Assembly (NCBI GenBank): GCA_963969395.1
Contig: OZ017805.1
Span: 682,001-746,000, forward strand
DNA from: Pseudoscleropodium purum
Lineage: Eukaryota > Streptophyta > Bryopsida > Hypnales > Brachytheciaceae
Direction of reading: 5' to 3'
DNA: 64,000 nt
A model generated the notes under the pieces. The model made no database searches. It saw nothing but the letters and a program-made list of their open reading frames with translations, and had not been told where the DNA came from. This document shows, piece by piece, positions 3,020 through 59,879 of this stretch. The translations under genes were made by a program, and so were the position numbers. How positions within the stretch are numbered: the first letter of the stretch is position 1; each line of letters starts with the position of its first letter.

Positions 3020-3329
3020 AAATGATATGAAATTCTCCCTTAACCGCAACTCCAAGTGCGTGGGCCCATAACCTATTGAGATTACAAAGTCATGTATGAG
3101 AGAAAGGCTTTACTTAGATGGTAGAACGATACACGAAGCCACATGAGTGGGCTCAACTTAAGCTAGAAGCCTTTCCTAGTTATCCACAAACCATGTGGGA
3201 TAACTAACTACATTGGGCTGCCTTTGACTACGAGCAATACCCATGGACTCTAACACTAACTAAGTGTCTAAAGCTACTTCTAAGGCTAACTGTACATGGT
3301 CTATGCTAGTATGTACAAAATCTCTAACA
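3020..3329 (-). repeat. Probable copia 5' LTR
   Basis: On the reverse strand the segment starts TGTTAGAG at 3329 and runs about 310 bp to ATTTCATATCA, followed by TTTGG, a layout usual for copia LTRs. The inner boundary is uncertain: an alternative end at about 2158 (TCCAACA) would make the LTR about 1.17 kb. The second LTR is outside the window, so this cannot be settled here. Confidence 0.5.
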
Positions 3330-3376
3330 GAAATCCATTCACCACCAAACTCGACCCGATCTTACAAAGTTAGAAC
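3330..3376 (+). pseudogene. Copy B kinase fragment between copia and copy A
   Basis: These 47 bases match the kinase gene of copy C at about 61125-61171 (the stretch after the catalytic-Lys motif). They are what remains of B between the copia insertion at 3329 and the insertion of A at 3377. The same gene resumes at 21731. Confidence 0.85.
3369..3376 (+). repeat. 8-bp target-site duplication of copy A, left
   Basis: GTTAGAAC occurs here directly before CAGGGTTGAC and again at 21731-21738 directly after GTCAACCCTG. The empty site is seen in copy C at about 61164-61171, where GTTAGAAC occurs once. It fits the hAT target consensus nTnnnnAn. Confidence 0.95.
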
Positions 3377-3540
3377 CAGGGTTGACACGACGTCCGGACG
3401 TCCAGACGCTGTGTCCGCAGCGTCCGCTGACATTCGCGGTCCCGGCGGACGCAGCGTCCGTCGGGACCGCCCCGTCCGCCTAGACGGCCCTATTTCCCGT
3501 GACTGCCCTACCCAAATTGCCCCGCGGTCACTCCCTTAAT
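3377..3540. repeat. Copy A kinase-side terminus
   Basis: The first 10 bp are CAGGGTTGAC. The next 150 bp are dense in inverted GCGTCCG/CGGACGC words and end in a unique GC-rich stretch before AT-rich sequence. The same terminus occurs inverted at 22890-23181 (copy B) and 63566-63806 (copy C), and decayed at 44972-45200 (copy D). Confidence 0.88.
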
Positions 3541-3931
3541 CTTTAAACAATTAATTGTTAAATGAAGTGCAATGGTTCGCGATTTGTTATTAAAACAATG
3601 TCTCTCATAAGTTGAAAGATTATAAAGTTTGACCACGAGTCCATGATAGTCTTGAAAGTATGAAAAAATTTCAATTCATTTTCAAAAGGCAAACTAAAAA
3701 AATTTGTGACTTCAAATATATATATATATACTATTTAAAAAATCAAGATCAACACAAATACAAACATAATCAATATGGGCAAAATGTATTCAATTTAATG
3801 TAGAATACCATACATTGTGCACATTTGGCTAATTGCACATATAATTTTTTTCATTCCAACTCTATATTTCTAAACTAATTTTTAATGCCTATATAACCTA
3901 TTCAAGTATTCAACTACTACTTCTACACTAC
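3541..3931 (-). other. 3' flank of the copy A kinase gene
   Basis: AT-rich, with a short TA run near 3720. It matches the 3' flanks of the kinase genes of copies B (22542-22889) and C (61974-62354). No gene is visible. The gypsy element interrupts it at 3932. Confidence 0.75.
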
Positions 3932-4549
3932 TGTTGCAGACGGCAACTCTTGGACGGAACCAAGATCAGATTTGAGTTGATACCTCAAACAGAGACAAGA
4001 ACAAACTAGAAGTGAGGGGATTCCTCACTCATGACTCAGAACACGCTTCAAGATGAGAAAACTAGAAGATCTATTGATAACATGAAGTCAAGGAATGACT
4101 GGGTACAACTAGTGTTGAAGAGAGTGAGGGACAATGGCCCTCGACTCTCTATTTATACTAGACTAAGGAACCTTCCGGAATAAGGCCTTGGAAACCTTTG
4201 GAAATATCCGTAGGTCTTTCTGAAAGCTTGTAGAAGCTTCCGGAAACTAGGAGGATCTAGTGGAACCTTCTAGAAGCTTGTAGAAGCTTCCGGAAACTAG
4301 TGGAACCAAATGGAACCTTCTGAAAACTTGTGGAAGCTTCCGAAAACTAATAGAACTAAGTAGAAGCTTCCGGAAACAAATAGAAACTAATGAAGACTAT
4401 TGGAATCTACTAGAATCATTGGAAACAACTTGTACACTAGGCCACCGCTTTTGAGAAGGTTCTTAAGAGGCATCCTTGTTGCAAAGGTGGTGGAGACTCT
4501 ATTAGGGACGAAACTACTGGATAAGGCCCGGTATGGCACGTCCGTGACA
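3932..4549 (-). repeat. Gypsy 3' LTR (618 bp)
   Basis: Matches 9764-10441 over its length but is 60 bp shorter, because a run of imperfect repeats built on CTTCCGGAAACTAG and CTTGTAGAAG has fewer units here. Confidence 0.93.
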
Positions 4550-4563
4550 TCACCCCCCCTTCA
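4550..4563 (-). other. Gypsy polypurine tract
   Basis: On the reverse strand AAGGGGGGGTGA lies directly before the 3' LTR, the expected place for the plus-strand primer. Confidence 0.8.
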
Positions 4564-5020
4564 AGGAACGAGTTCCACGAGTTCACCTGTGGGCCAATAG
4601 CATCAATAGAAAAGAGAATGTTTACGTGGGACTTCACGTGACTGCGACAAAAGGAAAGAATGTTCGGTATACAGAATACCGTTAGACGAAATGTTGGCAG
4701 CAAAAAGGCGGCAAATGGCGGCGAATCCGACGGCGGTAAGAAATAGTAGCGCTACTAAACTGAAGTATAAGGCCGTGTGAATGACAACATGAGACATCGG
4801 CAAGGTGGTGATTACGATGTTATCGACTTTTTCGGCCGACGTGAGTTCGAAGGCCTGTCCCCTCAAAACTGAGCTAGTATACTGTTACCTCGTCGATACC
4901 ACCACCGTTTTAGTTCAAAGTCTCTACATCTGCACCAACATTAAGAAAAATCTTGTAGAACTTGGTGTTGGTGTTGGTCCAAACGCATTAAACTCAAACG
5001 CTCCTTGGTTTTTGCGGATA
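4564..5020 (-). other. Gypsy 3' untranslated segment
   Basis: Lies between the chromodomain and the polypurine tract. I see no conserved coding signal; open frames here have no recognisable motif. Confidence 0.6.
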
Positions 5021-6046
5021 CTATCGATGAAATTCTTGAATCATTTTAGGGGCGTTGTCGAGATTAGAGGCAGGCTCCCATGTTCTTTCGCTGACTTCGT
5101 AGCCTTGCCAATGCACAAGATATTCAAGTCGTCGTCGATGGATGCGGGAGTCAAGAATCTCTGAAACTTCAAATTCCTCTTCACCTTCGATTTCAATTGG
5201 AGGCGGAGATTCTTGAATTCTTCCTGGCAGTGTTGATTCTTTGTAGGGCTCGAGGAGAGAGACATGAAATACGGGATGAATCTTCATAGAAGGAGGTAGC
5301 TCCAATCGATAAACCACCTTGTTGATTTGTTTGGCGACTAAAAACGGCCCTAGGCGGCGGTAGTCAAGTTTGTCAGATGGCCATCGAGTCTTTAAATTTT
5401 GACGGAGCAGCCAAACCTTGTCTCCAATAGAAATCAAAGGATGTTGCTTGCAAGACTTATCTGCATTGGTTTTCTGATGCTCCTGGGCTTCAAGAATTTT
5501 TTCTTTCATTTGCTTCTGGATATCAGATAGTCGGGTAGCAAGATCTGTAGCAGCTGGATTCTCTGAGATGTTGAGATTGAATTGATCAAACTTTGGATGA
5601 TGGCTGTAATTTGCAAAGAAAGGCATCTGTCGGGTAGACCCTTGCAATGTATTGTTGTATGCAAACTCTGCTAGTGGCAATAAGTCCACCTAATTATCTT
5701 GATGGTAATTGATGGTGCAGCGCAAGTACTGCTCCAACACTTGGTTGATGCGCTCGGTTTGTCCGTCGGTCTAAGGATGGTATGCTAAAGGCAATTTGAT
5801 CTCCACCTCTAGGATTTTGAACAAGGATTGCCAAAACTTGGATGTGAATTGCGTCCCACGATCAGAGATAATATCGGCAGGTAAGCCATGGATTCTGTAG
5901 ACATTGTCTACAAAGAGTTTTGCCGTTTCTTCGCCGGTAACTATCTTGTGACACGGAATAAAGTGCGCCATCTTGGTGAGCCGGTTGACAACAACAAAAA
6001 TAGAATCAAAGGTCTTGGACGACGGAAGATCCACTATGAAGTCCAT
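5021..6046 (-). pseudogene. int: Gypsy integrase core and C-terminal chromodomain
   Basis: The integrase core carries MDFIVDLP, VVVNRLTKMAHFIPC and DRGTQFTSKFW, followed by the target-DNA block DGQTERINQVLEQYLR and LAEFAYNN. The GPF/Y-like module and a chromodomain (EILDSRIHRRRLEYLVHWQGY then RTWEP...) close the protein at about 5040-5230. Two in-frame stops interrupt it: TAG at about 5771 (expected Gln before TDGQTE) and TAG at about 5690 (expected Trp). The chromodomain directs insertion to modified histones in related elements, which fits a heterochromatic setting. Confidence 0.93.
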
Positions 6047-8766
6047 GGCTTCTCAAGAATTGGCAATGGTTGAAGTAGTCTGTATGGCCGATGACGAGGA
6101 ATCTTGGACCTTGAACAAGTGTCATATGTCGTGACGTATTCTTTAACGGCCTTCCACATTTGGGGCCACCAGAAATCCCGAGATACGAGCTCCATGGTCT
6201 TGTTATAACCAAAATGTCTTGCCGATGGAAAATCGTGTCGAGATTGGAGCACTCGGAGCCGACATGGGCCTTCAGGGACATAAAACAATCCTTGATAATA
6301 TAGCAGCCCATCTTGGAATTGGAATCTTGAATCATAATCATCTCGGAGTGTCTCACTTCCATAAGATCTACGGATCTGCGGACTGGACGTAGGTTGGTTC
6401 GGAGATTCCAAATCTACAACCTCTGAATTAGGAATTTGAGAGTCCATTCTTGGGATTTCTCCAAGGTTGGAATTACCAGCATTATTCTTGAGTTTCAAGG
6501 CCAAAGGATCAGATTGCAAACTCACTCGGATTTCTTGAAGAAACGATGTATCTACCGAAGTTGTGGTGCGCATAGCCTTGAGCTGGAGTTGTTCGGGCTT
6601 GATTAGAGTAGACCGTTGCTGATCGTAAGCTGCGTCTCCCTCTTTGGGTGCAAGATACGCTCGTCGAGAAAGAACGTCAGACTGAATTTGTTGGGAATCG
6701 GGGCGGTAGGTGATGACAAAGTTGAAGCGCGAAAGCGATATACTCCAACGGGCTTCTCGTCGATTCAACACCTTAGCAGACATGAAATACTCGAGGTTCT
6801 TGTGGTCGGTATAGACTGTAACCGGATATTGAGCTCCTTCGAGGAAATGTCGCCATTCTTGGAATGAATCAACAATAGCTAAGAGTTCCTTGCTGTGGAT
6901 TTCGTAATTGATCTCCGCGGCAGTGAACTTTCTTGAATGGAATGCGACAAGATGGAGGTGTTCGTCTTTACTAGATTGCGAGAGGACCGCTCCAAGGGCA
7001 AAATCAGAAGCATCCATTTCTAGGAAGAACGACTTTTGAAAGTCAGGATGTGTCAAAATAGGCGCCGTTGTAAATGCCTTCTTCAGAGTTTCAAATGCTT
7101 GGCCTGCTTCCGTACTCCACTCAAGTTTGTCTTTGCAAGTCAATCGAGTCAACGAAGCAGCAATCTTGGAATAGTTTTGGATGAAGATTCGATAGAAGTT
7201 TGCAAATCCCAGGAAACATTGAACGTCTCGAATGGTTGCCGGTCTCTTCCACTCGGTCACCGTCTGGATCTTCTTTGGGTCCATAGACAGACCCTCTCTA
7301 GAAACAATGTAGCCCAAGAACTCGTCTTGGGGTTGGTGGAAAACGCACTTCTCGAGCTTGGCATATAGTCCAGCGTTGCGCAGCTTTTCCAACACTAATT
7401 GAACGTGTTTTTTGTGGTCCTCTTCGTTCTTCGAGTAGATGAGAATATCATTAAGGTAGCAAACCACAAAATCGTCCAAGAATTCACGGAAGATATCGTT
7501 CATCAAATGTTGAAAGATAGCAGGTGCATTGGTAAGACCGAATGGCATGACATTGTATTCAAAATGTCCATACCTTGTTCGGAACGCAGTCTTCCATTCG
7601 TCACCTTCTTTGATGCGTATTAAGTTGTACGCTCCGCGAAGATCAATCTTGGTATAGATTTTTGCATGGCCAAGTTGATCGAGAAGTCCGGAGATGAGCG
7701 GTAATGGATACCGATTCTTGATCGTGACTTTGTTCAGTCCACGATAATCCACGCACATTCGAAGGGAACCATCTTTTTTCTTCACAAATAAGATAGGAGC
7801 TCTTGCCGGTGATTTGGAGTGCCGAATAAACTTCTTTGCAAGATTTTCGTCTAAGTAATCTCGCAACGCAACAAGTTCGTTTTGGGAGAGATCGTAGATT
7901 GGGCCAAATGGCGGTTGTGCACCTTCTTGTAGTTCGATGCCGCAATCGTACAGTCGATGTTGAAGAAGCGTATCGGCGTTCTTCTTCTCAAATATGTCCC
8001 GATATTGCTCATATTGTGCTGGTAACTCGGTTGATCCTTGAAAGGGTTGAGGCGTCAGAATTGTATACACTACAAACATATTCCCCTTCTTTGCAGCTCT
8101 CATAAAAGCTCGGGCTCCGACCATCAATGGTGTTTTAGCCTTGGTCCCTTGTACTTGATGTGAATGAAGTTTTGGGGCAACTACAGGATATCTAGGTGTA
8201 GTTTGGAACGTTAGCTTTCGCTTATTCCAATCTATATCAGGATTATTTCTATTTAGCCAAGAAAGGCCTAAAATGAGAGGATTAGAAGGGGAACTGATGA
8301 TGTTGAAAACAACGGTGCTTTGATGTCCTTCTAGGCTGATGTCTAAGGGTTTAGTCTCGTGTGTGACATCTCCCGAGATCAAGGGTCTACCATCGATAAC
8401 TTCTACTGCAATAGGATATTTTTTAGGAATTACGGGAAGGTTATGTTGTCCTACAAAGTCTTTATCAATAAAATAGGCAGAGGCTCCGGAATCTAGCAGG
8501 GCTTTGACCTTTATGATATGCGGAAAAAAATCTATTTTAAGTGGAATATCAAAACATGGAGAGGCTTCAGAGGATAGGATAGGACCTGATGATTTGACAA
8601 TATCTGCCAGCCGCACGGTCCCTACTGTGGCTGGCTGATGTCGTTTCCCGAGTTCATTTCTTCGCATCTCGGCTCGGAAGTGCTTGAGGTGTATCGAAAT
8701 TTGTGCGGCTTTGGAACTGCAACCTTCGCAGGACAGTTGTGTGCGCGGTGGTTCTTTCCTCCACAA
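6034..8766 (-). pseudogene. pol: Gypsy protease, reverse transcriptase, RNase H and integrase zinc finger
   Basis: A 910-codon frame. The protease has LLDSGASAYFID near residue 90. RT spans about residues 290-500 with KKDGSLRMCVDYRGLN and MPFGLTNAPAIFQ. The catalytic box reads CYLNDILIYS where the family has YLDD, so one metal-binding Asp is Asn. RNase H has FFLEMDASDFALGAVLSQ. The integrase HHCC finger (HDFPSARHFG ... TTYDTCSRSK) has Tyr in place of the first Cys. The frame then runs into a stop at 6034, because a short deletion between two copies of TGGACTTCA shifts the frame just before MDFIVDLP. The enzyme would be inactive. Confidence 0.95.
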
Positions 8767-9591
8767 TACATGCAGAAGTCTTCCTTTTGACGTCGATCTT
8801 TTTCTTCTTGAGTCAATCTCTTGACTCTTGAGGCGTCGATTTGCATGGGCTCTGGCATTGACACACTTGAAGATGTTTGGCGAGTTGGAGCTGCATACTC
8901 TGCTCGATAGAATCCAGGTGTTGATCGTCGCTCTTGTCGACGCTCAAACAGTCGATTATCGCAATTAACTGCTTGAGTCACGGCCTCAGATAGAGTGGTC
9001 GGTCTGGGCAAGTTCAATAGCAAGTCTTTTACATCGTCACGCAGTCCCCATTGAAACGCGCTGATGAGAGCGTTGTTGTCCCACTCTACGTCGCAAGCAA
9101 GTTGTCGAAATTCTGCAGCGTATGTTGAGGCTGCACGCGATCGTTGTTGCAGAGTTCGAAGTTTTGTTGTTGCTATGAAGACTCGATCATTTTCTCCAAA
9201 AGTATTATTGAATTCTTCTAAGAATTGATCGAGGTTTGCCAAAAGTGGAGAATTTTTTTCCAACAATGGCGAGAACCACGATAACGCAGTTCCGGTAAGC
9301 AAGGTTCCAATGAGCCCAACTTGTATTTCTGCGGTTGGATATCTTTAGGGTTGAAGGCGGAAAACAAAGCTGAATTTGATTCTTGAAGGCTTACAACTAG
9401 ATGAAGTAACAAATTTTTGCGTCGTGTACTCTTGGGATGACTACAGGAAGTGAAGATCTCAAAAAATTCAAGTAGAATTCTTCGCCTCGCTCTCGAATGA
9501 TGATATCTCTTAATTCGGCCTTTGACCTGAATAGAAAACGTACTTCTAAAGTAATTGGAGTTGTGGAAATAGGAAGACGATTCAAGTCCAT
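8622..9591 (-). pseudogene. gag: Gypsy gag, frameshifted
   Basis: The better part is a 226-codon frame from 9302 with LTGTALSWFSPLLEKNS and a Retrotrans_gag-like segment, ending in a CCHC knuckle CMYCGGKNHRAHNC (about 8750-8800). The N-terminal part lies in other frames: 9397-9591 contains MDLNRLPISTT and the TLEVRFLFRSKAELRDI stretch. Gag is therefore broken by at least one frameshift at about 9300-9400. It overlaps the start of the pol frame by about 145 bases. Confidence 0.85.
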
Positions 9592-9763
9592 GTACTAACT
9601 CTCATGAAGACTGGTTAAAAGGAAAATATCAACTTAGAAGTGGGTAATCCACAACCTCTAAGGCATCACAATTCCTTGAAGAAGAGGGGTAATCCACACT
9701 CTATCTTATAAGAGTAGACTCTAATATCAAAAAGAACTAGAGAAAGATGCATTCTCTTCAAAC

Positions 9764-10441
9764 TGTTGCGGACGGCAACTCTTGGACGGAACCAAGATCA
9801 GATTTGAGGGGATACCTCAAACAGAGACAAGAACAAACTAGAAGTGAGGGGATTCCTCACTCATGACTCAGAACACGCTTCAAGATGAGAAAACTAGAAG
9901 ATGTATTGATAACATGAAGTCAAGGAATGACTAGGTACAACTGGTGTTGAAGAGAGTGAGGGACAATGGCCCTCGACTCTCTATTTATACTAGACTAAGG
10001 AACCTTCCGGAATAAGGCCTTGGAAACCTTTGGAAATATCCGTAGGTCTTTCCGGAAACTTGTGGAAGCTTCCGGAAACTAGGAGGATCTAGTAGAATCT
10101 TCTCGAAGCTTCCGGAAACTAGGAGGATCTAGTGGAACCTTCTAGAAGCTTGTAGAAGCTTCCGGAAACTAGTGGAACCAAATGGAACCTTCCGGAAGCT
10201 TGTGAAAGCTTCCGAAAACTAATAGAACTAAGTAGAACCTTTCGGAAGCTTATGAAAGCTTCCGGAAACAAATAGAAAATAATGAAAACCAATGGAATCT
10301 ATTAGAATCATTGGAAACAACTTGTACACTAGGCCACCGCTTTTGAGAAGGTTCTTAAGAGGCATCCTTGTTGCAAAGGCGGTGGAGACTCTATTAGGAA
10401 CGAAACTACTGGATAAGGCTCTGTATGGCACGTCCGTGACA
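9764..10441 (-). repeat. Gypsy 5' LTR (678 bp)
   Basis: Ends in ACTAC duplication at 10442-10446. No convincing tRNA primer site directly follows it on the reverse strand; a decayed match to a Met-tRNA site may lie about 35 bp inside. Confidence 0.93.
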
Positions 10442-10450
10442 ACTACCAAT

Positions 10451-11943
10451 CTAATATAAATGGCGGAAATGTTCATTTGGCATCGGCCAACAATATGTAT
10501 TAGAAAATCGCATAATCACATGGGCCAAACTAGTATTTTCAACGTTAGTCTTCGAAGAAATGCACTTCAAGTAAGCATAAAACACTTTTGCAAAGTCATG
10601 AAAGGCAAATTGTGTCGCACTAGGTGTTTTTCGTAGCACGTTGAAATACGCCTCTTACATGTTGTTTCCATTCATCCGCTGAGCAATTTTTCGAATGGCA
10701 TACTCTTCCGACTTATGTGAATACATCGGAATGACTTCCACATCTGCACCTGCATTATGCAAATATGCAATACGTGGATCCACCCACCATCTCCTCTGCA
10801 AAGTTTGTTTCATCTCATCTGCTGATGTGAATGTGTACAAAGACTTCATTGGCTGAGAAGCTAAGGTGGTCATGCCCCAATCGCAAACTCCAATGTACAC
10901 ACGTGACTCATCTTCTGGAAAATGCAACAAATTGTTGTCCGGAGAAAGATCATTGTGCAAATGTCCAGCAAGATGCACTGCATACATTATATGCATAAAC
11001 GCCCATGTCAACTCCGCGCGCTTCTTTCGATATCGCCCTAAACGATGAGCTTTACAACCTCCTCTTCGGTTGGATTTGTATACATCAAACGGATTTGAAT
11101 GTTGTCTGGATAGTCCTTATCCATATTCAACATTTGTCGAAGAGTTCCACCATTCCACCAATACGCATAACCTTCACACGTCGTTCCGTGCACTGCAGCA
11201 AACCGTATCACACCCGTGTGTGGAATTCGAACAGCCATTGATTCGTTTTAATGTTCTAACTTTGCAAGATCGGGTCGAGTTTGGTGGTGAATGGATTTCT
11301 TTGTCGCAAACTCCTAATAAGGAAGTATTCCTGGACATCCTTCAATACGGACCTTTCGAATCGTTGCATATCCACCTCTCATCGTTCTATCATCAACAAC
11401 AATCATGCGTGCTGTATCTAGAAGTGCTATGAGGTGTTGTTTGGTCCTTTCCGCTTCAGCAACTCCATCATTGCTTTCCCACCAAGCAATTGAACCAACT
11501 CAATTGTGCTTTTTGGCGAATGGAGCACATTGTCCCCTAAATAAGTTCGCTTTCAGAATCACTTCTTCAAAATGGGCGCCATTGGGTCGATATTCCTTGC
11601 CATATTTAACCAAAATGACTTTGGAATTCCACAAAACGTCATGAACCTTGTTCTCCAAACATTTGGTGAAGTACGTTTTATGCATTTCGTCATGCCACTT
11701 CACCACATTCAATGCATCCAACAACATCTGTGTCATGTCTACCTTGAATTTAGACACGCACTCTTTTTGATATCTGATGTACTTATTGTCTAAAGACAAT
11801 GTTGTTTCCAATTCATAAAATTGAACGATGCGCTCCATCATGAATTTCTTGCATTCTTCCGAAGGACTTTGGCGAGCTACTTCCAAGTTCGATGGTCCCT
11901 CTCCATGTTTAACCTTCGCAACCTTCTTCTTCCCCTTCGTCAT
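10451..11943 (-). pseudogene. Copy A protein kinase gene, broken
   Basis: Same gene as 60480-61973. It starts at ATG 11943 with a Lys-rich N-terminus (MTKGKKKVAKVKHGEG). Visible kinase motifs are the glycine loop GGYATIRKV, the Lys motif EFATKKS, the catalytic loop HNDLSPDN and DWG (for DFG). Defects are a TGA after AFAKKHN (Arg in copy C), the shared TAG before EFATKK, a TAA before NESMAVRIP, a 1-nt deletion in an A run at about 11045 and a TAA before EAYFNVL. The catalytic Lys, HxD Asp and DWG Asp codons are all still present, so inactivation is by stops rather than by active-site loss. Confidence 0.85.
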
Positions 11944-12139
11944 TGTGACAAATGAAATTGATATAGATCAAATTTTTTAATTTGAAATTAAATTCACGCG
12001 CAAGTGTCCAAAAAATTGGCAACAAGGGGGCCCCAATAAACCACTCTTGCCTTGCCTCGGAAAGGAGCCAATGGAGGATGAACCACCAAGCTCTCCGCTC
12101 CACATTGCATTCACAAGGGGCAAAGCAAAAGTAACAATA

Positions 12140-12445
12140 CGGACGGCTCATCCGCCCATCTTATTGGGGCGTGGACGGCCCCAAATCGTCCGCCCGATCG
12201 GACGGGCCGGGGGTGGCGGATGCATCGGCCGTCCGCCTCCCCGAAACCCTCGAGCCCCGTCCGCCCGATCGGACGGCCACGGGCGGACAAATCTGGCGTC
12301 CGCCCGATCCGACAGGTCGCGGCGGACGGCCCCAAACCGTCCGCCTGATCCGATGGGTCGCGGCGGACAGCCCCAAACCGTCTGCCCGATCGGACGGGCA
12401 CGGGCGGACAAATCAAGCGTCCGCCCGATCCGATTTATTTTTCAT
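12140..12445. promoter_or_regulatory. GC island upstream of copy A kinase
   Basis: About 300 bp of GC-rich sequence in an AT-rich context, built from CCGTCCGCCC and GATCGGACGG words in both orientations, about 200 bp upstream of the kinase ATG. The equivalent block in copy C is 59880-60300. Promoter function is inferred from its position only. Confidence 0.6.
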
Positions 12446-13020
12446 ATTTGAAAATAGAATCTAAAGAAGAACCACTAATTGTCTAATTTGGGCATTTCTT
12501 CATACGAATAAGAAATCATTTTAGTTTTTAGCAATCGTTGAATGAAAAATAAAAAAATTTCAAATAATTTAATCTTTCATAAATTAATTAGAAATACATT
12601 TATATCATTTATGAGTTTCTAAATGTAATAAACACACAACAATAATTTCAAAATACACACCATGCTAGTACATATTTAACCTCGAATGCTAAATTCAAAA
12701 ATAGACATAATATGGCTCTTACAAAATTACATTTCTTCTTCATATTTTTATTATTTATCAAAGTCGCTTATAGCCTTATACATCAACGCTATTATAAAAT
12801 AATACAATGATGTCTTCAACAATATGCTTGCCTACATACATACTTGGTGTACACTATTACACAACACTTTTTGAAAAAGTGAACAAAATTGTTGTTCAAA
12901 ATTGTTCTATTCATTTAAAATTTTGTACTACTTCTACCAATTTAGTGCTCTATACTTGTCCTGAGAGTAAAAATGAGAAAATCGAGCAAACACATGCTCA
13001 CTAGATACTTGCATGTTTTT
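12446..13020 (-). other. AT-rich 3' flank of the copy A UIM gene
   Basis: No gene. It matches 58873-59454 of copy C closely, and AATAAA-like words are frequent, so it probably holds the 3' untranslated region and polyadenylation signals of the gene at 13021-14282. Confidence 0.6.
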
Positions 13021-14282
13021 TTATTCGGAATTTGAATCGGACTCAAATTGTTGACCGGTGCCTCTTCTTTGTACTCCAATGAACGGACCACCTCCGTAGT
13101 TTCCGTGATATCCACTCGGTGCACCTCCTTGTCCATAATTTGAACCTCCAAAAGTGGAAGGAGGAACCGGAGTAGTAGGCTCTAATCCTCTTTCATTTGA
13201 AGCCCCGTAATAAGAGGCCCCATGATGCCCGTATGAATCACTTCTAGTTGATCCCGGATAGTATTGGGCGCTTCCGTGAAGAGAACAACTATACTGCGGG
13301 GTTACATGGCTTCCTCTACTACCTTCGAAGCCCACTTGAGTGGGCGTCGTATAATATGAACCAGATTCAGTAGACCTACCATAGTGTGTGTTGCCATAGC
13401 TACCTGTTCCACCTAGAGAGCCAATTTCAGGGGGAGTGCCATAACGAGAACCAACTGCACTTGAACCACCATAATGCGTGGATCCATAGTTCCCTCTTCC
13501 ACCTTCATATCTATTTTGAGGATCGTAACCAGAGTATGAACCACCTCTTCCATGTTCAGATTCTTGCATTCCATGTTCATGTCCGTAGGACCCACCATGC
13601 CTATCTTGCCGTCCACGATCTTGAAGGCTTCTGCGTGTTGCTTCTTGCATTTGTTGCTCGAATTCAATTCATTCTCGTTCTTCTACCCGCTCGTGCCTAA
13701 CTCCAAATGTGACAGGCGCTTGCATATCATCGTCATCATCGTCATCTAACCACGCATCTTCAGCATCTCGTAAAACAACTAAAGGTTGTTGTAGATAACC
13801 TCGATTAGACCACTCTGGCATGCAATCGCTTGCACCCCTCCACTGTGTATCTATAACGGCATCCGTGCGCGTATAGTTCTCTACATTGCGACCTGTAGCA
13901 GTACGCCAGTCCACGTCCTTGTGGAGTACAATCTCTGCCCAAACCATTGCCATAACATTATAATTCATTATATTTGATTTGGCGCTTTTAATGCTAAGAA
14001 CTCGATGCACTTGTGTGTATCGTTGTTTGAAGTGCTCATTTTGGCACGTAGACATTTGTCCTTCCCAACGTGGCCAAAGTGCTCTACACGTTCACGTGGC
14101 TAAAGTTTTTGAATGTGAGTCATTTTTACATACTTCTTGCACATTGAAGAATCCCACACTCTTGTTGGTTCTTCTTCCCATCCCGGTTCACCCACGCACA
14201 ATGGATCGGCCCAAGCATCCCAATCGAACAATTGGGGTCTTCCCTTTCGACTACTTTTTTTGGGTGTTCTATCTTTCGACAT
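13021..14282 (-). pseudogene. Copy A UIM / G-S-Y-rich protein gene, broken
   Basis: Reads as the gene at 57637-58872 and is nearly identical over its first 180 bases. Defects: TAG at 14100-14102 (Trp in KLW), a 1-nt loss nearby that shifts the frame, and TGA at 13669-13671 where copy C has CGA, a CpG-type change. Relative to C, this copy keeps 26 extra bases after KLW. The old copy D has about 27 there in frame, so the longer form is ancestral. The G/S/Y-rich tail differs from C at only a few residues. Confidence 0.85.
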
Positions 14283-14493
14283 GATGAAGCTGAAGCAAAG
14301 AGAATGAAACAATTAGAAAGCTTAAGAACCAAAATTTTGATTTAACTAATTAATTAAAATTTTACAAGCGTGAACTTTGTGAAAATTTGTAACAATCTCA
14401 CAACAATCATTCACTCAAAGCGGAAGGGGCGCACAGAGCTTCCAATGCACTGGTCCGCCTACTCCAAAAGAGAACGATTGCTCAGAATGAGCC

Positions 14494-14912
14494 GTCCGCC
14501 TCCCCATATATATGCGGACGCTTCGAGGCGAACGTCCAGATCATGCGGACCACATCAGTCCGCGTGTCAATCGGACGGCCGTAACCGGGCGGACGGGTAT
14601 CAGGGCGGACAGGGCGGACGCCCGATAGGATGGACAAGGCGGACAGGTATCGGGGCGGTCGGGGCGGACGCAGGATCAAGCGGACAGGGGATCGGGCGGA
14701 CTGGGCAAACGGAGGACGGGGCGGATGGGTATTGGGGCGGACGGGGTGGTCGGGCCGGATAGGGCGGACTCCGGATCGGGCGAACAAGGCGAACGGAGGA
14801 CGGGCAGACAGATATCGCGGCGGACGGGGTGGACAGGGCGGACGAGTATCGGGACGGACGGGGCGGACAAGGCGGACGCCGGATCGGGCGGACAGGGCGG
14901 ACGGCTCATCTT
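14494..14912. promoter_or_regulatory. GC island with 10-bp periodic GGGCGGAC units and TATA box
   Basis: About 420 bp, mostly units such as GGGCGGACAG and GGGCGGACGG repeated every 10 bp, all with G on the plus strand. A CATATATATG TATA-like box at 14505-14515 lies on the gene side, about 225 bases before the ATG at 14282. Runs of three or four G spaced 5-6 bp could form G-quadruplexes. Confidence 0.65.
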
Positions 14913-15376
14913 AAACCCTTAACCTAATGAAGGAAATTGTTCTTTTTTCAAAATCTCATGGTAGAGATGTTTAACCCGTAAAGTTCTTTTCACTAAAAAC
15001 ACTTCAAAACTGCCAATAGTAGTGCAAATATCAAGTCTTAAAAGAAAAATACTTTGGGGCATATGTAACTGTAGCATCTTGTAGTAAATTAGTTGGAAAA
15101 AATGTGGAAAAATTTTTACAAAAATCCACCATTTGGATTGTAAGATATTAGATATTGAATGTTTCATTTAAGGGGACTACTCAATTATGTCTATTAATGA
15201 ACAATTGGTAGGCTAACAAACCTAACTTAGCATGTATTTTAATATTTGTTGCAATTGTTTTAGGAATATTATAACATAACACTATTATAATATTCTTATA
15301 AATGATATACTACTAAATCATTTCAAAATCAACATTCGAACACAATCTGTCAATCTTGTCTTTCATACTCGTTTAA

Positions 15377-15411
<35 letters not shown>

Positions 15412-17334
15412 TATATACATACATAAAATATATTAGATAAATCAACATGAACAAATCAATGATTATATATTTCATAGATCTATTCTTCATCAATCAAATA
15501 AGAGTGCATGTGCAAATATAGACAAAGATGGTTTCTCCATTTGTTCCCAAAAAATAGATAAACAAATAGAGAAAGATATGAAGTGAATGTTACTTGGAGA
15601 ATTGGAACGAAAGAAATTAAAGTACTCAATTGCATTTTATTAAATTGGAAAATTGCATGTGGATGACATGAATTAATCTTCATAGATGCTAAACTTATAT
15701 GAGTTGCATTTCAACATTTATGATTTATGCAATTGATTGAATTGAAAGCTCTTGTAATTACATTTTCAAATTTTCGATTCAATCATTCAAATTTGCAAGA
15801 GTGATTTATGATGGATTTATAACTTTAAATGTGAAAGCATTCAATGCCTTTATGCATTTGTTCATCAATATATTAATTTTAAATAAATAATATATATTTT
15901 TTATAACATATGCATAAACCATTACATTAAAAAAAAAAAAAAACTAAGAGCCAAGCCAAATAGGTTGGTCAAATGAAGAGAACAAGATAATAAGAGCCCT
16001 ACGAGACAGAAAACAAAGGAAAAAAAAGAAAATATCAAAAGGATTCAAAGGAAGAAACAAGATGCATTCTTGCAAGATCGTAGAATACATAATGATTTCA
16101 AAATCCAAACACAAATATATTTTCTATTTCAATGAGAGTCAAAAATGAACTACCTTGCTCTCAAAGATTGTATAATGTACACGTTATACAAAACGAACAT
16201 ATAACAGAAAGAGTAGAAGACATCTTTTATCATGATTGAAAATTGAAATGATTTTTTTTTTCTATGTAGAATATTTTATGAAATGTAACAATATATTTAA
16301 TTATCATAATAATTGGTAGAAATCTTTGTGCAATACATAGAAACATTTCATTCATGTGGAATTTTTTCATTTATTTAGGATTAAAATGGAAATATTATAC
16401 TCTACAAAGTACAAACCAAAAACAATACCATATACCTAAGTTCAAAAGTTTGCAATTGTTTCGTGAATTCATTTTGAAAACTCAAACAAAGAAATATTTT
16501 ATAATCAATATCTTGTTCATTTGAATCATTTCAAAGTTCGAATTCCGAATTCAATTCCTATTTATAATAGAAATTATGTTTGTCAATTTTTTAGATCTTT
16601 AAACAATGAACCTTCTTTTTTAAAATTAATATTTAAAAACATTTGAAATAAGAATATTGGAATTACCCTTCAAAATAAATATAGCACATGTATAATGTAT
16701 TCTACTCCACCAACTCAAGTAACAAATTTTTCTATGTTTTTAAGAAAAAATATAGCCATACATGATTTGAAAGTTAAAACATTGTTTCTTTATCTTTGTA
16801 TTCAAATCTAATCAAAATTTCATTAAGAAATATGAAAAACTCGATGTTCATTTGAAGATCGTGATGCACTTTTAATGAGAAATCACAACCTTTCATTAAA
16901 TATCATGAGGTTGAAATCCATTTAACTGTTATTCTAATTATGTATTGGGGTCTTTTTAAAAAATTTCATTTGCTTACAATGAAAATGGAATTGATTATCT
17001 TTGCAAAACATTTGATTTCCTAATGAACTTTAAAAAAATCCCCACCATCTTCAAATCTTCTCAAAACCTATTTAGAGGAATAATATCAGTAACTTATTCA
17101 AACATATTCAACTTAACCACATTCCCCTCATTTGTAAAACAATTTAGGGGAGAGAAGAAAAGGTTTAAGGTAATTAGGGTATAAGGTTTAGGGTTTACAT
17201 TTAGGAAAAAAAAAATAACAAACCAATTACATTGATCTTCATTTAGCAGTGATTATTAGGTTGTTTTATTTTTGAAATGTTACCGCTCTTTTTGAATAAT
17301 AATGGCCTCATAGGATGCACCAATTGACAGCTGG
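14913..17334. other. Central AT-rich spacer of copy A
   Basis: 2.4 kb without a credible gene, between two divergent GC islands. It holds a TA microsatellite at about 15379-15412 (shorter in copy C) and one TTTAGGG-like patch at about 17160-17200. The part at 14940-15180 is related to a 1.2-kb insertion in copy C (62355-63565). Replication or structural roles are possible, but nothing in the sequence shows them. Confidence 0.7.
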
Positions 17335-17610
17335 GTGGATGCCGTCGGCGGTCAGTGTTTAAGTGGGGCGGTCAGCGTGTCCAAAGCGCGGACGGCGTCG
17401 GAAGGCGGACAGTGCGGACAGTCCGAGCGGACGCGCCGGTCGGACGGGGCGGTCGGACAGGGTGGTCGGTCAGGGCGGTCGGACAGGGCGACGGCGGACG
17501 GTGCGTCCGCTGCCGAAGCGGACGTCGGCAGTCCGCGCGGCGGATGCAAGGTTCGGAGCCGCTTCTCGTGGTCCGGGGCAGGTCCGATGGCGGACGGCTA
17601 TAAGGGTGGA
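17335..17610 (+). promoter_or_regulatory. GC island and TATA box of the long RING-containing unit
   Basis: GCGGTCGGACAGGG-type units over about 260 bp run directly into a CTATAAGG box at 17598-17605. The first ATG in frame with the downstream gene is at 17818, about 210 bases on. The spacing from TATA box to ATG is close to that of the UIM gene. Confidence 0.65.
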
Positions 17611-17817
17611 GTGACTTTTCATTTCTTCTCACTTCAATTCTCCTTCGGTGCCAAGTTGGATGTGCTACTATTGCTTTATGCGCTAGTTGCTCCTACGGGG
17701 TGGAGAGTTGGGGTCCTCTATCTTGTGTTATTGTGTTGCGGTTGATGCCATCACTTTTGACTATCACGTGAGATTTTTTTATTCACTTCAATTGGTTATT
17801 GAATCCAATTGACAATC

Positions 17818-19911
17818 ATGAACGGCGAAGGTGATCGAAATATGGATGGGGTGACTCCAGGAAGCTAAGTGAAGTAAAAAAGCAAAGTGAAGGGGGCTAC
17901 GCACAACCTTCGGCTTGACATTTTAAATGATCCTACAATTAAAGCAGAGTGCAGGTGGGAAGATGAAGATGCGGAATATTGGACATCAAGAATGTGCAGG
18001 ACCTATGTTAAAATGTACCACATTGACAAGTTGTGGTCTCAAGAGTTGCACAAGAGTCATACACGGGATTTTTGTTGTAAACTATGGACTTGCAACAACA
18101 AACATTTTGTCCATCGATCTGAGGAGGTGTGGCGTGTTCTATTCGGAAACAAGCGCAGAAGTAAAGGCTATATTAATTGTAGCGTGGCGTGTATGGTTTA
18201 TGCAGAACTTATATTAGAGCGCAAGATCGATTGGAGCACGTTTCCGACGACAACAGCTTGCCCACTTCTACTTGAAGCCAATCAAAAGGACATTCCCGAC
18301 TTGTACAATTCAGAGGGAGAAACAGAAAAAGTATTAAAAAATACTATTGAGGTGAAAACGGATGGTGTGGAGAAAGCCTCAAATGTTGAAGAATTACGGT
18401 CTGTACAATCTCCAACAAAAGCAATCAATGAAAGCTCTTCGAAAAATGTGGGGAAAGATGTGGAGAAAGATGTAGAGGCGCAGGAGGGTGAAGTCTTTTC
18501 CATAGCTCCAACGCATTTGACCTTTACACCAAATGTTGCGACACAAACGCAAACGGAGTTTGTAAACAAAGGCAAGGTTTGCACGGAACGCGGGGAAACT
18601 TCAAAAAGTAAAGTAGACGAAGTCTTGGCGGAGAAAGTGGCAAAGGCTAATGCTACAATTGATAGTCTGATAGCCAACAATTGTTTTGATAGTTTGGTCT
18701 ACAAATCTCCGCCTGTGCATCAAGGTGTTGAATCTAGTCCAACGTTAAGTTTAGAAGACAAAGTACATACGCCTCGTGGACAAAGCGTGACGTTTGATAA
18801 TATATCCTCATTATGGAGTTCTGAGCGTAAAAGGCGGGCGGAGAAGTTTCCGTTTACAGCGTCATTGACGAGTCCTCTACATCGAACCTTGCAAGACATG
18901 TCTAATCCAAAACAATTGGAAAATCTTTTGATGCTCTCGGTTCAGTTTAGTAACCTTCATGAAGAAATAGGCGGATCGTCTAACCCCGATGATGGTGCTA
19001 CTACTGTTCCAATGAGTCCACTTGCAGATCCAAAGAATGTTGGACATATACTTGATACAGCTTTCAAGATGACGATGTCAACTGAATTTTTAGCGCAAGC
19101 TGCTCCGACTTTTATGAATTTGGCCAAGGAGTTTTCTTTCATGGCATCAAAGATGTTGAAAGGTGCTATAGCATTTCAGAATCTCACAAAGACTTTCGGA
19201 CCACTTTTCGAAGAAAGAGATGTTCACATACTACAATTGCTAGAATATGAGAAAAAAATTGCTGACCTTGAAGGAGTGAAAGCAAGGTGCAAAGTGTTGG
19301 AGTTGAAATTAAAGACTTCGGAGAGTGAGGTTGAACATTTAAATCAACAATCATCGAGGCAAATGGAGGAGTTGATGAAGATGCATAAACGGATTGCAGA
19401 ATTGCAAGGGACCTCCAAGAATCCAAGTGAGGTTGCAATCTCACCAGTGATTGTATTCGGAGATAGTCAAGAGACTCAAGAGAGTGAAGATAAGCTCTGT
19501 CTTCCTTTTGATAAGGCCAAAGCAAGCGACAACCCTGCCATTGTGAATGTACAAGAAAGTCACGATATGAGCATGTTAAAAACGACACAACAACCATCAA
19601 TGGAAAAGCTTTCATCCGTTTACGTGAATGCGGAGACGCAAACGGAGAGTTGTGACTTTGAAGAGTTGAAGCATAAATTGGAGGAGGCAATTGAAGCAAA
19701 AGGAATCGTTGAATCCAAGTTGAATCGATTGCAATTGTCCTTGGATTTGAAGAAGTTTATGCCATCTAACGGCTTGGAGTCTCGATGGTTAGCATGGGTA
19801 CAAAGACTCCAAGATAGACCCTCTATAGTATCTCGAGCAATGGTAGGTCTTCAAACATTGGCAATGGAGTCGAATGAAAATTGCGATGCCATTCAAAGCT
19901 CTTTGAGTTGA
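17818..19911 (+). CDS. Element protein 1, N-terminal part: shared MC-YVKM domain plus coiled coil
   Basis: An uninterrupted 674-codon stretch (17887-19911). The natural ATG in this frame is at 17818, but two TAA codons (17866, 17875) lie between it and 17887. The first ATG after them is at 17992, so the true start is unclear. From 17992 there is a domain (MCRTYVKMYHIDKLW ... MVYAELILERKIDW) also found in the UIM protein. A Ser/Thr-rich middle follows, then Leu/Glu/Lys heptad-like segments at about residues 440-510 and 600-635 that suggest coiled coils. The protein sequence is the same in copy C. A TGA ends it, and the RING part continues in the same frame. Function unknown; the coiled coils suggest a self-associating scaffold. 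Confidence 0.72.
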
Positions 19912-19920
19912 TTCAAGACT

Positions 19921-20409
19921 ATGTTTGACCAACATCCTTCAAAGGGATATACGGAGATCACATGTTGGGGAGACATGGATGCCATGTTTGAGCGGTTAAA
20001 CCACACAAAGAAGGACCAAGCTCCACCCATCAATTGGGCCTTGGAAGTAGAGGAAGGATGGGTCCCTTACAACACACTTTCAGTACACATCAATGTGAAA
20101 GACAAGCGAGTGGTGCATGCTTGTGATCCAGCCTCTCCAATCTTGGATGGTTGTTGTAGCCTTTGCCAAGGCCTCTTCGGACCGGAAGGTGCGATAACCA
20201 TGGGCCAATGTCGCCACACTTTCCATGTCACTTGCATTGTAAAAGCATCACTCATTCGTTCGGTGTGTGTCGAGTGTCGTAGTCCATTGAGTGCTAGGTT
20301 CTACGAAATGTTTGGTATCTTGGAAGCTATGCCTCCAGGCCACGAGTACAATCGTTGGAATCTTCCTCTTGATCAAGCGCTGTACAAATTTCAAAATTAT
20401 CAACGTTAG
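19921..20409 (+). CDS. Element protein 1, middle part: RING-H2 zinc finger
   Basis: 162 codons from ATG 19921, in frame with the preceding gene and separated from it by TGA and three codons. The finger reads C79-x2-C82-x14-C97-x-H99-x2-H102-x2-C105-x10-C116-x2-C119, a full RING-H2 spacing with the usual H-x-F-H-x-x-C-I core (CRHTFHVTCI) and a Pro two residues after the last Cys-Arg. RING-H2 domains normally bind two zincs and recruit a ubiquitin-conjugating enzyme, so E3 ubiquitin ligase activity is the likely role. The region before the finger (CWGDMDAMFERLNHTKK) is unrecognised. It ends at TAG 20407, after which the frame continues. Identical in copy C. Confidence 0.85.
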   Translation: MFDQHPSKGYTEITCWGDMDAMFERLNHTKKDQAPPINWALEVEEGWVPYNTLSVHINVKDKRVVHACDPASPILDGCCSLCQGLFGPEGAITMGQCRHTFHVTCIVKASLIRSVCVECRSPLSARFYEMFGILEAMPPGHEYNRWNLPLDQALYKFQNYQR

Positions 20410-21216
20410 GGGAAGCCAATCCGGTGGAATGCAAATGAACAGAGGCATGATTTGTACGAGGAATCTCAGCAACCATTGGATTTGGATGTGTGGATGACTC
20501 ACAATAGAGAGGTGGAATTGCGGGCTCGAGGAATCGTAGATGACGCGGCCCATGAAATGTTTTGTCGCAACATGGGGGGACATTGGAGCTTGCAACACGA
20601 AAAGTTCTTTCGTTTTCCAGATAAAAAAGTGGAGAGAGGACCAGAAGACAGTTGGGTGGAGGTGAACCATGGAAAAGAGTTTGCTGAGCAGTATAAGGCA
20701 TACGACCACACCCTCGTAGGTAGGGCCCTTCTATTGTCGAAGTTGGAAGAGGCTGCAAAAGTTCGTGCTGTCTACGATACAAATGGACAAACAAGCACAG
20801 GACATTCATTTGTAGATGTGGCAGCAGCATTTGATAGGCGCATTGGCGATATCATAGGGCATTGGAAGGCTTTCCTATTGGATGGAGACTGCCTCACAGC
20901 ATGGCAAGGGAAAGGAGATGATGGAGTTGTTCAAGCAATGGTAGATCGTATGGAGAGCAATTTGAGAACCTTGAAGGCAGACGAAGTCGATTTATCACCG
21001 AAAAGAAAACAAAAAAGGAAGCGTGAAGAGGACGATGACTTCTCTCCGGAAACCAAAAAACAATTTCATAAGGTGGACATCGAAGTTCAATCTGGAGGGC
21101 GAATAGTCCGTCCAAGTCAACAACGGTCAACTCGTCAATCATCTCCTAAACTCCTCGGTACAGCAGATTTTCCTTTTGTTTTGGAAGAAGGTAGTGGTCC
21201 ATCCGGTGGAAAGTAG
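20410..21216 (+). CDS. Element protein 1, C-terminal part: unrecognised domain with nuclear localisation signal
   Basis: Follows the RING frame in phase after TAG 20407; the first residues after the stop read GKPIRWNANEQRHD. There is no ATG near the start (open from 20410, nearest alternative start TTG at 20452), which argues that it is the tail of a longer protein rather than a gene of its own. Most of it is a compact, Trp-containing domain I do not recognise. A basic stretch PKRKQKRKREEDDD resembles a nuclear localisation signal, and a Ser/Gly-rich tail ends at TAG 21214-21216. Identical in copy C. Confidence 0.6.
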   Translation, partial: GKPIRWNANEQRHDLYEESQQPLDLDVWMTHNREVELRARGIVDDAAHEMFCRNMGGHWSLQHEKFFRFPDKKVERGPEDSWVEVNHGKEFAEQYKAYDHTLVGRALLLSKLEEAAKVRAVYDTNGQTSTGHSFVDVAAAFDRRIGDIIGHWKAFLLDGDCLTAWQGKGDDGVVQAMVDRMESNLRTLKADEVDLSPKRKQKRKREEDDDFSPETKKQFHKVDIEVQSGGRIVRPSQQRSTRQSSPKLLGTADFPFVLEEGSGPSGGK

Positions 21217-21515
21217 GATTTGAGGAGAATTTTGTTTTTTAAAAACAATGGGCCTTTCATTGTTTAAAAACAAAAAAGAATGTGAAAGATTTAAATCTTA
21301 AAAAGATCGTATAGGATTCAATAGTGATATTGGAACTATGTTTTCATGTATTTTGTTTATACATATATATTTATATATAAAGATGCTATATTTTCATTTG
21401 CGTATAAAAATATTTTTATATGTACATCTTATTTTACGTGGATGCATTCATTTGTGATTGTGTAATTTTCAAATTACATAATAATTTAAAATTTTCTAAT
21501 GACTAATGGCAATGC
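21217..21515 (+). other. 3' flank of element protein 1
   Basis: AT-rich, with TATATATTTATATATA near 21370 and several AATAAA-like words. A short inverted pair (TTTTTAAAAACAATG and CATTGTTTAAAAACAAA, 21236-21275) directly after the stop could form a hairpin in the 3' untranslated region. No gene. Confidence 0.55.
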
Positions 21516-21730
21516 GAAGTCCGCCCCGTCCGCCCTGTCCGTCCTCCCCGTCTGCTCTGTACGCCCGACCGCCCCGCCCGTCCGCTCTAGCCGTCCGCCT
21601 CCCGTCCGCCCCACCCCGCGCATCCGCCTTCCGACGGCGGGAGGGACGCTGCGACCGCTAGCGTCCATGCGTCCGGACGTCCGGAAAACGGACGCTATTT
21701 TGGGGCGGACGTTGAGATTCGTCAACCCTG
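21516..21730. repeat. Copy A terminus on the protein 1 side
   Basis: GC-rich array of CCGTCCGCCC words, then a palindromic GTCCGGACGTCCGG stretch, ending GTCAACCCTG. Only the last 10 bp are inverted relative to the other end; the rest is subterminal sequence specific to this side. The same end is at 50219-50415 (copy C) and at the right of the 315-bp element. Confidence 0.88.
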
Positions 21731-22541
21731 GTTAGAACATCAAAACAAATCAATGGCTGTTCAAATTCCACACGCGGGTGTGATACGGTTTGTTGCGGTG
21801 CACGGAACGACGTGTGAAGGTTATGCGTATTGGTGGGATGGTAGAACTCTTCGACAAATGTTGAATATGGATAAGGACTATCCAGACAACATTCAAATCC
21901 GTTTGATGTATACGAATCCAACCGAAGAGGAGGTTGTAAAAGCTCACCATTTAGGACGATATCGAAAGAAGCGGTCGGAGTTGACATAGGCGTTTATGCA
22001 TATAATGTATGCAGTGCATCTTGCTGGACATTTGCACAATGATCTTTCTCCGGACAACATTTTGTTGCATTTTCCAGAGGATGAGTCACGTGTGTACATT
22101 GGAGTTTGCGATTGGGGCATGACCACCTTAGCTTCTCAGCCAATGAAGTCTTTGTACACGTTTACATCAGCAAATGAGATGAAACAGACTTTGCAGAGGA
22201 GATGGTAGATGGATCCACGTATTGCATATTTGCATAAAGCAGGTGCAGATGTGGAAGTCATTCCGATGTATTCACGTAAGTCGGAAGAGTATGCCGTTCG
22301 AAAAATTGCTCGGCGGATGAATGGAAACAACATGTTAGAGGCGTATTTCAACGTGCTACGAAAAACACCTAGTGCGACACAATTTGCCTTTCATGACTTT
22401 GCAAAAGTGTTTTATACTTACTTGAAGCGCATTTCTTCGAAGAGTGACGATGAAAATACTAGTTTGGCCCATGTGATTATGCAATTTTTTAATACATATC
22501 GTTGGCCGATGTCAGATGAACATTTTCGCCATTTATATTAG
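21731..22541 (+). pseudogene. Copy B kinase gene, 3' part
   Basis: Continues from 3376 across the insertion of A. It encodes MAVQIPHAGV, the catalytic loop HNDLSPDN, CDWG and the C-terminal lobe ending DEHFRHLY. Two TAG codons, at about 21987 (LT-stop-AFMHI) and 22206 (RRW-stop-MDP), stand where copies A and C have TGG. No frameshift is visible from 21740 to the TAG at 22539. Confidence 0.85.
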
Positions 22542-52012: not shown

Positions 52013-52021
52013 AGTCTTGAA

Positions 52022-54115: not shown

Positions 54116-54319
54116 GATTGTCAATTGGATTCAATAACCAATTGAAGTGAATAAAAAAATCTCACGTGATAGTCAAAAGTGATGGCATCAACCGCAACAC
54201 AATAACACAAGATAGAGGACCCCAACTCTCCACCCCGTAGGAGCAACTAGCGCATAAAGCAATAGTAGCACATCCAACTTGGCACCGAAGGAGAATTGAA
54301 GTGAGAAGAAATGAAAAGT

Positions 54320-59870: not shown

Positions 59871-59879
59871 AGAGCAATC

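Follow-up and report, generated by a model that had tools for sequence, protein, structure and literature searches.

An abundant 12-kb hAT-type element of the moss Pseudoscleropodium purum carries kinase, RING-H2 and UIM-like genes and is probably mobilised by a transposase-bearing sister type

DNA transposons are usually thought to need a transposase alone, and those found to carry further genes are often ascribed to random capture. In pairs of the Ac/Ds type, the two partners have their ends in common and the transposase acts in trans, Ds elements being deletion derivatives or carrying unrelated filler. Another group of plant elements, VANDAL, belongs to the Mutator-like superfamily. Here we describe a stretch of 64,000 nucleotides (the window) from the moss Pseudoscleropodium purum, bases 682001-746000 of contig C49, which is made up of copies, one nested in another, of an abundant DNA transposon of 12 kb. 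The reference copy is called element A, and the kind of element that it represents, with its genes for a kinase, a RING-H2 protein and a protein with an apparent ubiquitin-interacting motif (UIM-like), type R. Searches of the genome (313 Mb, 52 contigs) point to a high-copy plant hAT-type lineage in which type R probably carries a selected kinase/ubiquitin-type accessory module that helps propagation, and is mobilised in trans by the transposase of a sister type, type T.

For plant hAT elements, the available part of a 2018 survey gives (T/C)AGNGNNG as the terminal pattern and mentions that the moss Physcomitrella yielded no hAT homologs (PMC6027215). In the plant DNA transposons named VANDAL, a protein, VANC, counters epigenetic silencing, according to the sections available of two accounts (PMC10398659, PMC5735166). 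For fungal DNA transposons bearing TET/JBP genes, including hAT7 and IS3EU with an alpha-kinase, the accessible text proposes that the accessory genes serve to escape from methylation-based silencing (PMC12730594). A hAT element with a kinase/RING/UIM-like set was not found in the literature searched, Repbase and most subscription papers lying outside that search.

Element A and the copies of type R

Element A starts with CAGGGTTGAC at position 3377 and finishes with the inverted copy of this sequence at 21730, and GTTAGAAC stands exactly on both flanks; the hAT-type ends and exact 8-bp duplication claimed in an earlier reading of the letters alone (hereafter the sequence-only reading) are thus borne out. 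A spans 18.35 kb, or about 11.84 kb once a nested Ty3/gypsy retrotransposon is subtracted, which agrees with the 12 kb of the same reading. The long terminal repeats (LTRs) of the retrotransposon are 88% alike, and its insertion is a later event than that of A. A lies in a kinase exon of a further copy, D, whose two halves it separates; the same exon runs uninterrupted in A itself and in copy C, where GTTAGAAC is present once. The features of A are the following.

3377..21730, + strand: element A, type R hAT-type element, recognised by its ends, 8-bp duplication and colinearity with ten other genomic copies
3369..3376, no strand: left target-site duplication of A, GTTAGAAC
3377..3386, + strand: 5' terminal inverted repeat, CAGGGTTGAC, fitting the plant hAT pattern as given in the available part of PMC6027215
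3932..10441, - strand: Ty3/gypsy retrotransposon inside A, LTRs 3932-4549 and 9764-10441, ACTAC duplicated
10451..11943, - strand: kinase gene, broken by four stops and one lost base
13021..14282, - strand: UIM-like gene, broken by one stop and one frame-changing indel
14923..15955, no strand: part of the spacer between the UIM-like and RING genes, matched at 94% identity by L060, a piece of type T
17818..21216, + strand: RING-H2/coiled-coil gene, broken by four in-frame stops
21721..21730, + strand: 3' terminal inverted repeat, GTCAACCCTG
21731..21738, no strand: right target-site duplication of A, GTTAGAAC

GC-rich tandem repeats lie on either side of the UIM-like gene (12297-12433 and 14588-14904).

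All genome match counts reported here refer to the best candidates scored and are therefore lower bounds. A DNA search with the RING segment 17818-19300 scored the best 40 of 501 candidates, all of them 95-100% identical, and ten of these 40 places were fetched whole; L003 and L004, which show other insertions or breaks within the stretch examined, are not among the ten. Every fetched copy is colinear with A, has both ends (matching CAGGGTTGAC with up to one mismatch), measures 11.5-12.0 kb end to end and carries all three single-exon genes, the kinase and UIM-like genes on one strand and the RING gene on the other; the sequence-only reading had asked whether other copies lack these genes. Exact 8-bp duplications flank eight of the ten (L039, L041, L043, L045, L049, L051, L055 and L057), and L047 and L053 have no exact 8-bp duplication. 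At the protein level, the best 86 of 1551 candidates were scored for the kinase (full length or nearly, at least 93% identical, 34 of the 86 without stops), the best 101 of 1323 for the UIM-like gene and the best 43 of 1576 for the RING gene.

Further copies of the family are found in the window itself.

50219..63805, - strand: element C, second type R copy, inverted relative to A
50717..54115, - strand: RING gene of C, with the four stops that also break that of A
57637..58872, + strand: UIM-like gene of C, open, 411 codons
60480..61973, + strand: kinase gene of C, broken by four stops
21739..23181, - strand: copy D, 5' part, split by A, resuming for 48 bp at 3329-3376
3329..3376, - strand: short remnant of the kinase exon of D, left of A
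44972..~49974, + strand: copy E, old and diverged, with kinase and UIM genes and with B inserted in it, 68-81% identical to A by piece
45542..45856, no strand: copy B, miniature element of 315 bp, complete with its two ends and flanked by duplicated CATATTAG

Copy C is 99% identical to A over 12440-21730 of A (10 mismatches in the 6274 bp of 15393-21666) and 89% over the kinase part; its 5' end is mutated (CAAGGTTGAC), and its flanks, GTGCACTT and ATTTCAAA, show no matching duplication. Copy E is itself broken. The sequence-only reading saw the gene blocks repeated in C and partly in B and D: C does carry all three and D a 5' part with the kinase exon, and B turned out to be the miniature inside E. 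Likewise, the kinase, RING-H2 and UIM-like genes that it recognised are real, and most of their frames in the window are broken, the UIM-like gene of C being open.

The same state of decay is seen when the ten fetched copies are taken together with A and C. The kinase is one frame of 497 codons, with no length change in ten of the twelve copies and one lost base in the other two, and it is open in L043, L051 and L055. The RING frame either retains its 3399 nucleotides or is one or two bases shorter. In L055 alone, the 1075 codons that follow a stop at codon 57 are open, and two of the 43 listed genome copies are open over the same length. The UIM-like gene is open in C alone.

Some side observations concern the arrangement of these copies. 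C has about 1.2 kb extra at 62350-63560, in its 5' part, absent from A and D. The identity of A and C, 99% over 9 kb and 89% over 2 kb, is as expected after gene conversion or inverted duplication. Close neighbours of the family are inverted, not direct: within 25 kb, there are six inverted against no direct pairs among the 86 kinase matches listed and three against none among the 40 RING matches listed, and within 50 kb six against two and four against none, respectively. A second miniature, about 310 bp long and bounded by the same ends, with the exact 8-bp duplication GACTTGAG, occupies positions 858-1167 of the joined copy L053.

Encoded proteins, transposase and sister type T

The kinase signature of the sequence-only reading was confirmed. 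Among 23 aligned homologs, 22 match the Pfam model Pkinase at E<=0.01 (the element's own protein, which is the first member, falls below the curated cut-off), and Gly190, Lys215, Glu234, Asp332, Asn337 and Asp355 are invariant in all 23, the Lys, Glu, Asp, Asn and Asp residues being those which we take to be catalytic. The loop motifs are HND, in most homologs, and CDWG, not HRD and DFG. The predicted structure of the 497 residues is confident (pLDDT, the predicted local distance difference test score, 83.6); a sequence search of PDB returned no relatives of the kinase at E<=0.01. The protein collection contains 60 relatives, at 24-73% identity. Two named ones, at 48% and 42%, are proteins of the moss Ceratodon purpureus, which may serve as a warning for annotation: relatives of a transposon kinase stand there as proteins of the moss. 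The relative at 73%, labelled as belonging to a bacterial metagenome bin, is presumably moss DNA in that bin.

As for the RING protein, all eight RING-H2 (C3H2C3) zinc ligands are invariant in seven of seven homologs, and the Pfam model zf-RING_2 matches the same seven at E<=0.01 (again with the first member below the curated cut-off), so that this signature, too, holds, and the protein may be classified as a putative ubiquitin ligase of the RING-H2 type. It consists of an N-terminal domain, a long helical middle, the RING-H2 domain and a conserved C-terminal part. Its alignment has no Pfam nuclease or transposase match, its predicted structure (pLDDT 37.6) is too poor to judge the fold, and a sequence comparison with PDB gave a weak match to RNF24 (E 0.0011). 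The UIM-like gene is real and conserved across homologs; its protein has the N-terminal domain in common with the RING protein (hhalign 99.7%, E 5e-27) and a Gly/Tyr-rich C-terminal tail. The Ala...Ser pattern after acidic residues was found by eye alone and sits elsewhere in some homologs. The protein collection holds six relatives of the RING protein (32-96%) and 22 of the UIM-like protein (up to 72%), and near-full-length homologs beyond this genome's own copies exist for all three proteins, e.g. at 72, 73 and 72% identity.

Neither A and C nor any of the ten fetched copies contains a hAT transposase match, and a transposase hidden inside A was considered and rejected, neither hAT protein having matched the window. 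Because no such match lies inside the element copies, type R, as far as these searches tell, can only be a non-autonomous hAT element. Candidates for its transposase are present elsewhere in the genome, where a search with hATC scored the best 150 of 664 candidates. Of the 86 listed kinase loci, 18 have a UIM-like partner (same strand, 2.2-3.0 kb away), 19 have a hATC partner (opposite strand, 5.6-8.7 kb upstream), none has both and 49 have neither, and five decoy placements gave 0, 0, 1, 0 and 0 colocations. As to whether the genes sit in unrelated loci without the termini, a point raised by the sequence-only reading, spacing and orientation are fixed wherever partners are visible. None of the 66 listed RING loci has a hAT match within the element span, and 28 have the UIM-like gene, 14 the kinase and 8 both.

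The kinase loci with a hAT partner are taken as type T. One of them, of which a 2-kb piece (L060) was read, matches A at 12024-12318 (89%) and 14923-15955 (94%), and the UIM segment between is missing, with GC-rich repeats in its place. The 5' end of type T, CAGGGTTGACACGATGTCCGGACG, was read at the same locus (L061; hAT match at C44:6870874); both this end and the stretch upstream of the kinase match type R. As for the 3' end, at another locus a hATC match lies next to the L057/L058 copy, preceded by an end 84.5% identical to the 3' end of A over 129 bp; L058 contains a hATC domain (E 4e-10). Because of the L060 match without the UIM segment, the colocation lists and the 5' end in L061, types T and R would appear, from sequence comparison, to differ in two respects, the UIM segment and the gene at the 3' side, a hAT transposase standing in type T where type R has the RING gene. 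The hAT-type mobility that had been guessed from the ends is thus supported by relatives that combine the same kinase or the same ends with a hAT transposase.

The UIM-like gene may come and go through recombination between its flanking GC-rich repeats. Matches to CAGGGTTGAC with one mismatch near other hAT genes (L010, L015, L016, L020, L021 and L029) were examined as possible ends and, by their orientation, taken as coding sequence.

A second family of hAT elements also bears a RING gene. Locus L059 has a hAT frame of 1172 codons (DUF659 E 8e-37, hATC E 1.5e-9; weak likeness to Hermes in PDB) and a 760-codon RING gene (RING2) homologous to the RING protein of type R (hhalign 99.6%, E 2e-24), the N-terminal domains being related at 33% over about 110 residues. 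Of the 70 matches listed for RING2, 29 span the full length at 97-100%, and 19 of the 29 have no stops; the remainder is mostly made up of older relatives at 31-58%, many of them interrupted by stops, and in seven matches a 328-residue relative of the RING2 N-terminus lies about 2 kb beyond the RING gene. In 17 of 30 RING2 loci a hAT match lies no more than 15 kb away, and the nearest one is in every case on the opposite strand and the same side; 13 loci have none within that distance among the matches listed. Between the two families, identity of the hAT proteins is 36-40% in the longer matches, and the protein in L058 is 40% identical to the family 2 transposase over 514 residues. Family 2 is distant and younger, with many recent open copies. 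On account of L059 and of the colocation of RING2 with hAT genes, a RING gene is paired with hAT elements in two distant families.

Selection, decay and possible explanations

C>T and G>A account for 74-81% of the changes seen in one copy only (private changes), among which third positions are not in excess (codon positions 1/2/3: kinase 79/70/58, UIM 68/53/43, RING 139/115/111); private changes represent the decay of single copies. Most changes shared between copies, on the other hand, should have been inherited through transposition. The two classes were compared with nonsense counted among the amino-acid changes, and with C excluded from the UIM and RING counts, since in these genes it hardly differs from A. 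For all genes together, amino-acid and silent changes stand at 167:95 among the shared and at 643:203 among the private ones (p=1.3e-4), that is, there are fewer amino-acid changes in the shared class. Taken singly, the kinase (p=4.6e-4) and the UIM-like gene (p=0.0096) show this depletion, also outside C>T/G>A, where shared and private ratios are 7:13 and 57:12 for the kinase (p=9e-5) and 5:7 and 36:7 for the UIM-like gene (p=0.0066). In the RING gene, nonsense accounts for 1 of 121 shared and 25 of 436 private changes (p=0.025). Compared with copy E, the ratio of non-synonymous to synonymous substitution rates (dN/dS) is 0.32-0.39 for the kinase (421-425 codons) and 0.48-0.51 for the UIM-like gene (364-371 codons), and the kinase differences are unevenly distributed over the codon positions (p=5.8e-5). 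Depletion of amino-acid change is therefore shown for the kinase and the UIM-like gene, and the dN/dS below 1 for which the sequence-only reading called was found in these two, with the shared/private comparison in agreement; that comparison gave no such result for the RING gene (p=0.36).

In the explanation that we favour, the type T transposase would recognise the ends common to both types and move type R in trans, and the kinase, RING and UIM-like proteins would form a phosphorylation/ubiquitin-type accessory module aiding the spread of the family. Through their common N-terminal domain, the UIM-like and RING proteins may be led to the same partner, which the kinase may mark and the RING protein ubiquitinate. 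The heavy C>T decay suggests that the copies are methylated, which makes a host silencing factor, marked for turnover, the first candidate target and the most likely one; tuning of the transposase level would be second and less likely. As single copies decay after insertion, mostly through C>T/G>A, selection would act on the lineages that go on transposing: those with a working kinase and UIM-like protein would propagate better, and the module would be kept. More tentatively, the two types might form a two-component transposon in which T gives the transposase and R, co-amplifying with the same ends and kinase, contributes an E3-ligase/UIM module by which, for the benefit of both types, silencing is disabled or the transposase licensed; if true, these would be two mutually useful parasites with one common kinase and one set of ends.

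Several observations weigh against a selected module mobilised by type T. Neither partner was seen at the 49 kinase loci already mentioned, and the type T layout was pieced together from separate loci, the 5' end from L060/L061 and the 3' end from L058, where the kinase was unread. A TAA at codon 57 of the RING frame is common to seven of the twelve copies, and either the RING start lies downstream or many copies moved with the defect. The RING gene shows no significant difference between private and shared changes (p=0.36, and 0.40 outside C>T/G>A), and, if only C>T/G>A changes are considered, the signal is weak throughout (kinase p=0.077, UIM 0.20, RING 0.62, all genes 0.049). Nonsense is not significantly rarer among the shared changes of the kinase (p=0.60) and the UIM-like gene (p=0.13), the codon positions at which the latter differs from E are not significantly uneven (p=0.09), and recurrent mutation or gene conversion can likewise give rise to changes common to several copies. 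Finally, the Pfam UIM model found no match in the 17 homologs scanned at E<=1, so that the ubiquitin-binding motif of the sequence-only reading was not confirmed.

Part of this evidence would suit a type R that is a plain non-autonomous hitchhiker on the type T transposase, its genes being old passengers without a role in propagation: type R has no recognisable transposase, most sampled frames are broken (the RING is open over 1075 codons in two of the 43 copies listed), private changes lack a third-position excess and the RING gene is without clear selection. We consider this unlikely, given that shared variants of the kinase and the UIM-like gene are poor in amino-acid changes, both overall and outside C>T/G>A, that the kinase dN/dS to E is 0.32-0.39, that near-full-length homologs of all three proteins exist beyond this genome's copies (72, 73 and 72%), and that a distant transposase-bearing family also retains a RING gene. 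The high copy number, fixed gene set and lack of a recognised transposase might alternatively mean that one of the three proteins, e.g. the RING protein of about 1100 residues, acts as a novel sort of transposase, type R then being autonomous. This is very improbable: related elements with a hAT transposase and the same kinase or 3' end make a second one unnecessary, and the RING alignment has no Pfam nuclease or transposase match, its structure model being uninformative. It is even less credible that R and T are one element, the split being an artefact of incomplete match lists; the kinase loci without an assigned partner would agree with this, but ten whole type R copies have no hAT match inside, no listed RING locus has one in its span and the type T locus L060 is without the UIM segment. 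The least tenable idea is Pack-type capture of host gene fragments, known for plant hAT and Mutator elements, since the same three complete single-exon frames recur in ten of ten further colinear, full-length copies, which rules out chance as the origin of the set, and two of the genes are also in the old copy E, with homologous proteins in other data.

If the selected module is accepted, it has survived at least dozens of the insertions sampled; it and the transposase reside in two different element types, and a distant family that bears a transposase, with many open copies, holds its counterpart. Because it is kept, split and mirrored in this way, a direct test is now possible of whether plant transposons escape silencing via phosphorylation and ubiquitin.

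Surroundings of the elements and comparison with known systems

Outside the elements, the window contains tandem arrays at 38274-38833 and 43241-44291 (units of about 45 and 108 bp), a direct duplicated stretch (35264-35665 and 35838-36249, 78%), an inverted one (23193-23646 and 27762-28215, 78%) and, to the left of the elements, three overlapping long open frames at 134-1517. RNA families in the window number zero at the gathering threshold.

A DNA transposon family named Lanisha was reportedly proposed by authors working on Ceratodon. As a match for the present elements it was rejected, because it is described, in the accessible part of the source, as having an EnSpm-like transposase and belonging to a group with 2-5 bp duplications (Repbase 2020, via PMC12730594).

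Like plant hAT elements of the Ac/Tam3 type, the elements studied here have 8-bp duplications, termini (CAGGGTTG) that fit (T/C)AGNGNNG as far as the available survey text defines it (PMC6027215), and relatives with a hATC transposase; unlike them, type R is about 12 kb long, lacks a transposase and has a conserved kinase/RING/UIM-like set. As in Ac/Ds pairs, the ends are common to two partners and a transposase would act in trans, whereas type R, unlike Ds, holds a conserved gene set in the place of the transposase.

VANDAL elements with VANC are likewise plant DNA transposons with an anti-silencing protein, judging from the sections available (PMC10398659, PMC5735166), a role that the module may have here; they are of another superfamily and encode other proteins, and are set apart by description, not by sequence comparison. 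In IS3EU, as in type T, kinase and transposase are oppositely oriented, according to the accessible text (PMC12730594). The TET/JBP transposons differ in being fungal, in carrying dioxygenase/alpha-kinase genes and in the passage of TET/JBP between superfamilies, and, as described in that text, they have neither a RING/UIM module nor a split between two element types (PMC12730594). By analogy, type R may act like these gene-bearing transposons that fight silencing (VANDAL/VANC, hAT7 and IS3EU), and differs from them, as they are described in the available sources, in its gene set and in the division between two types.

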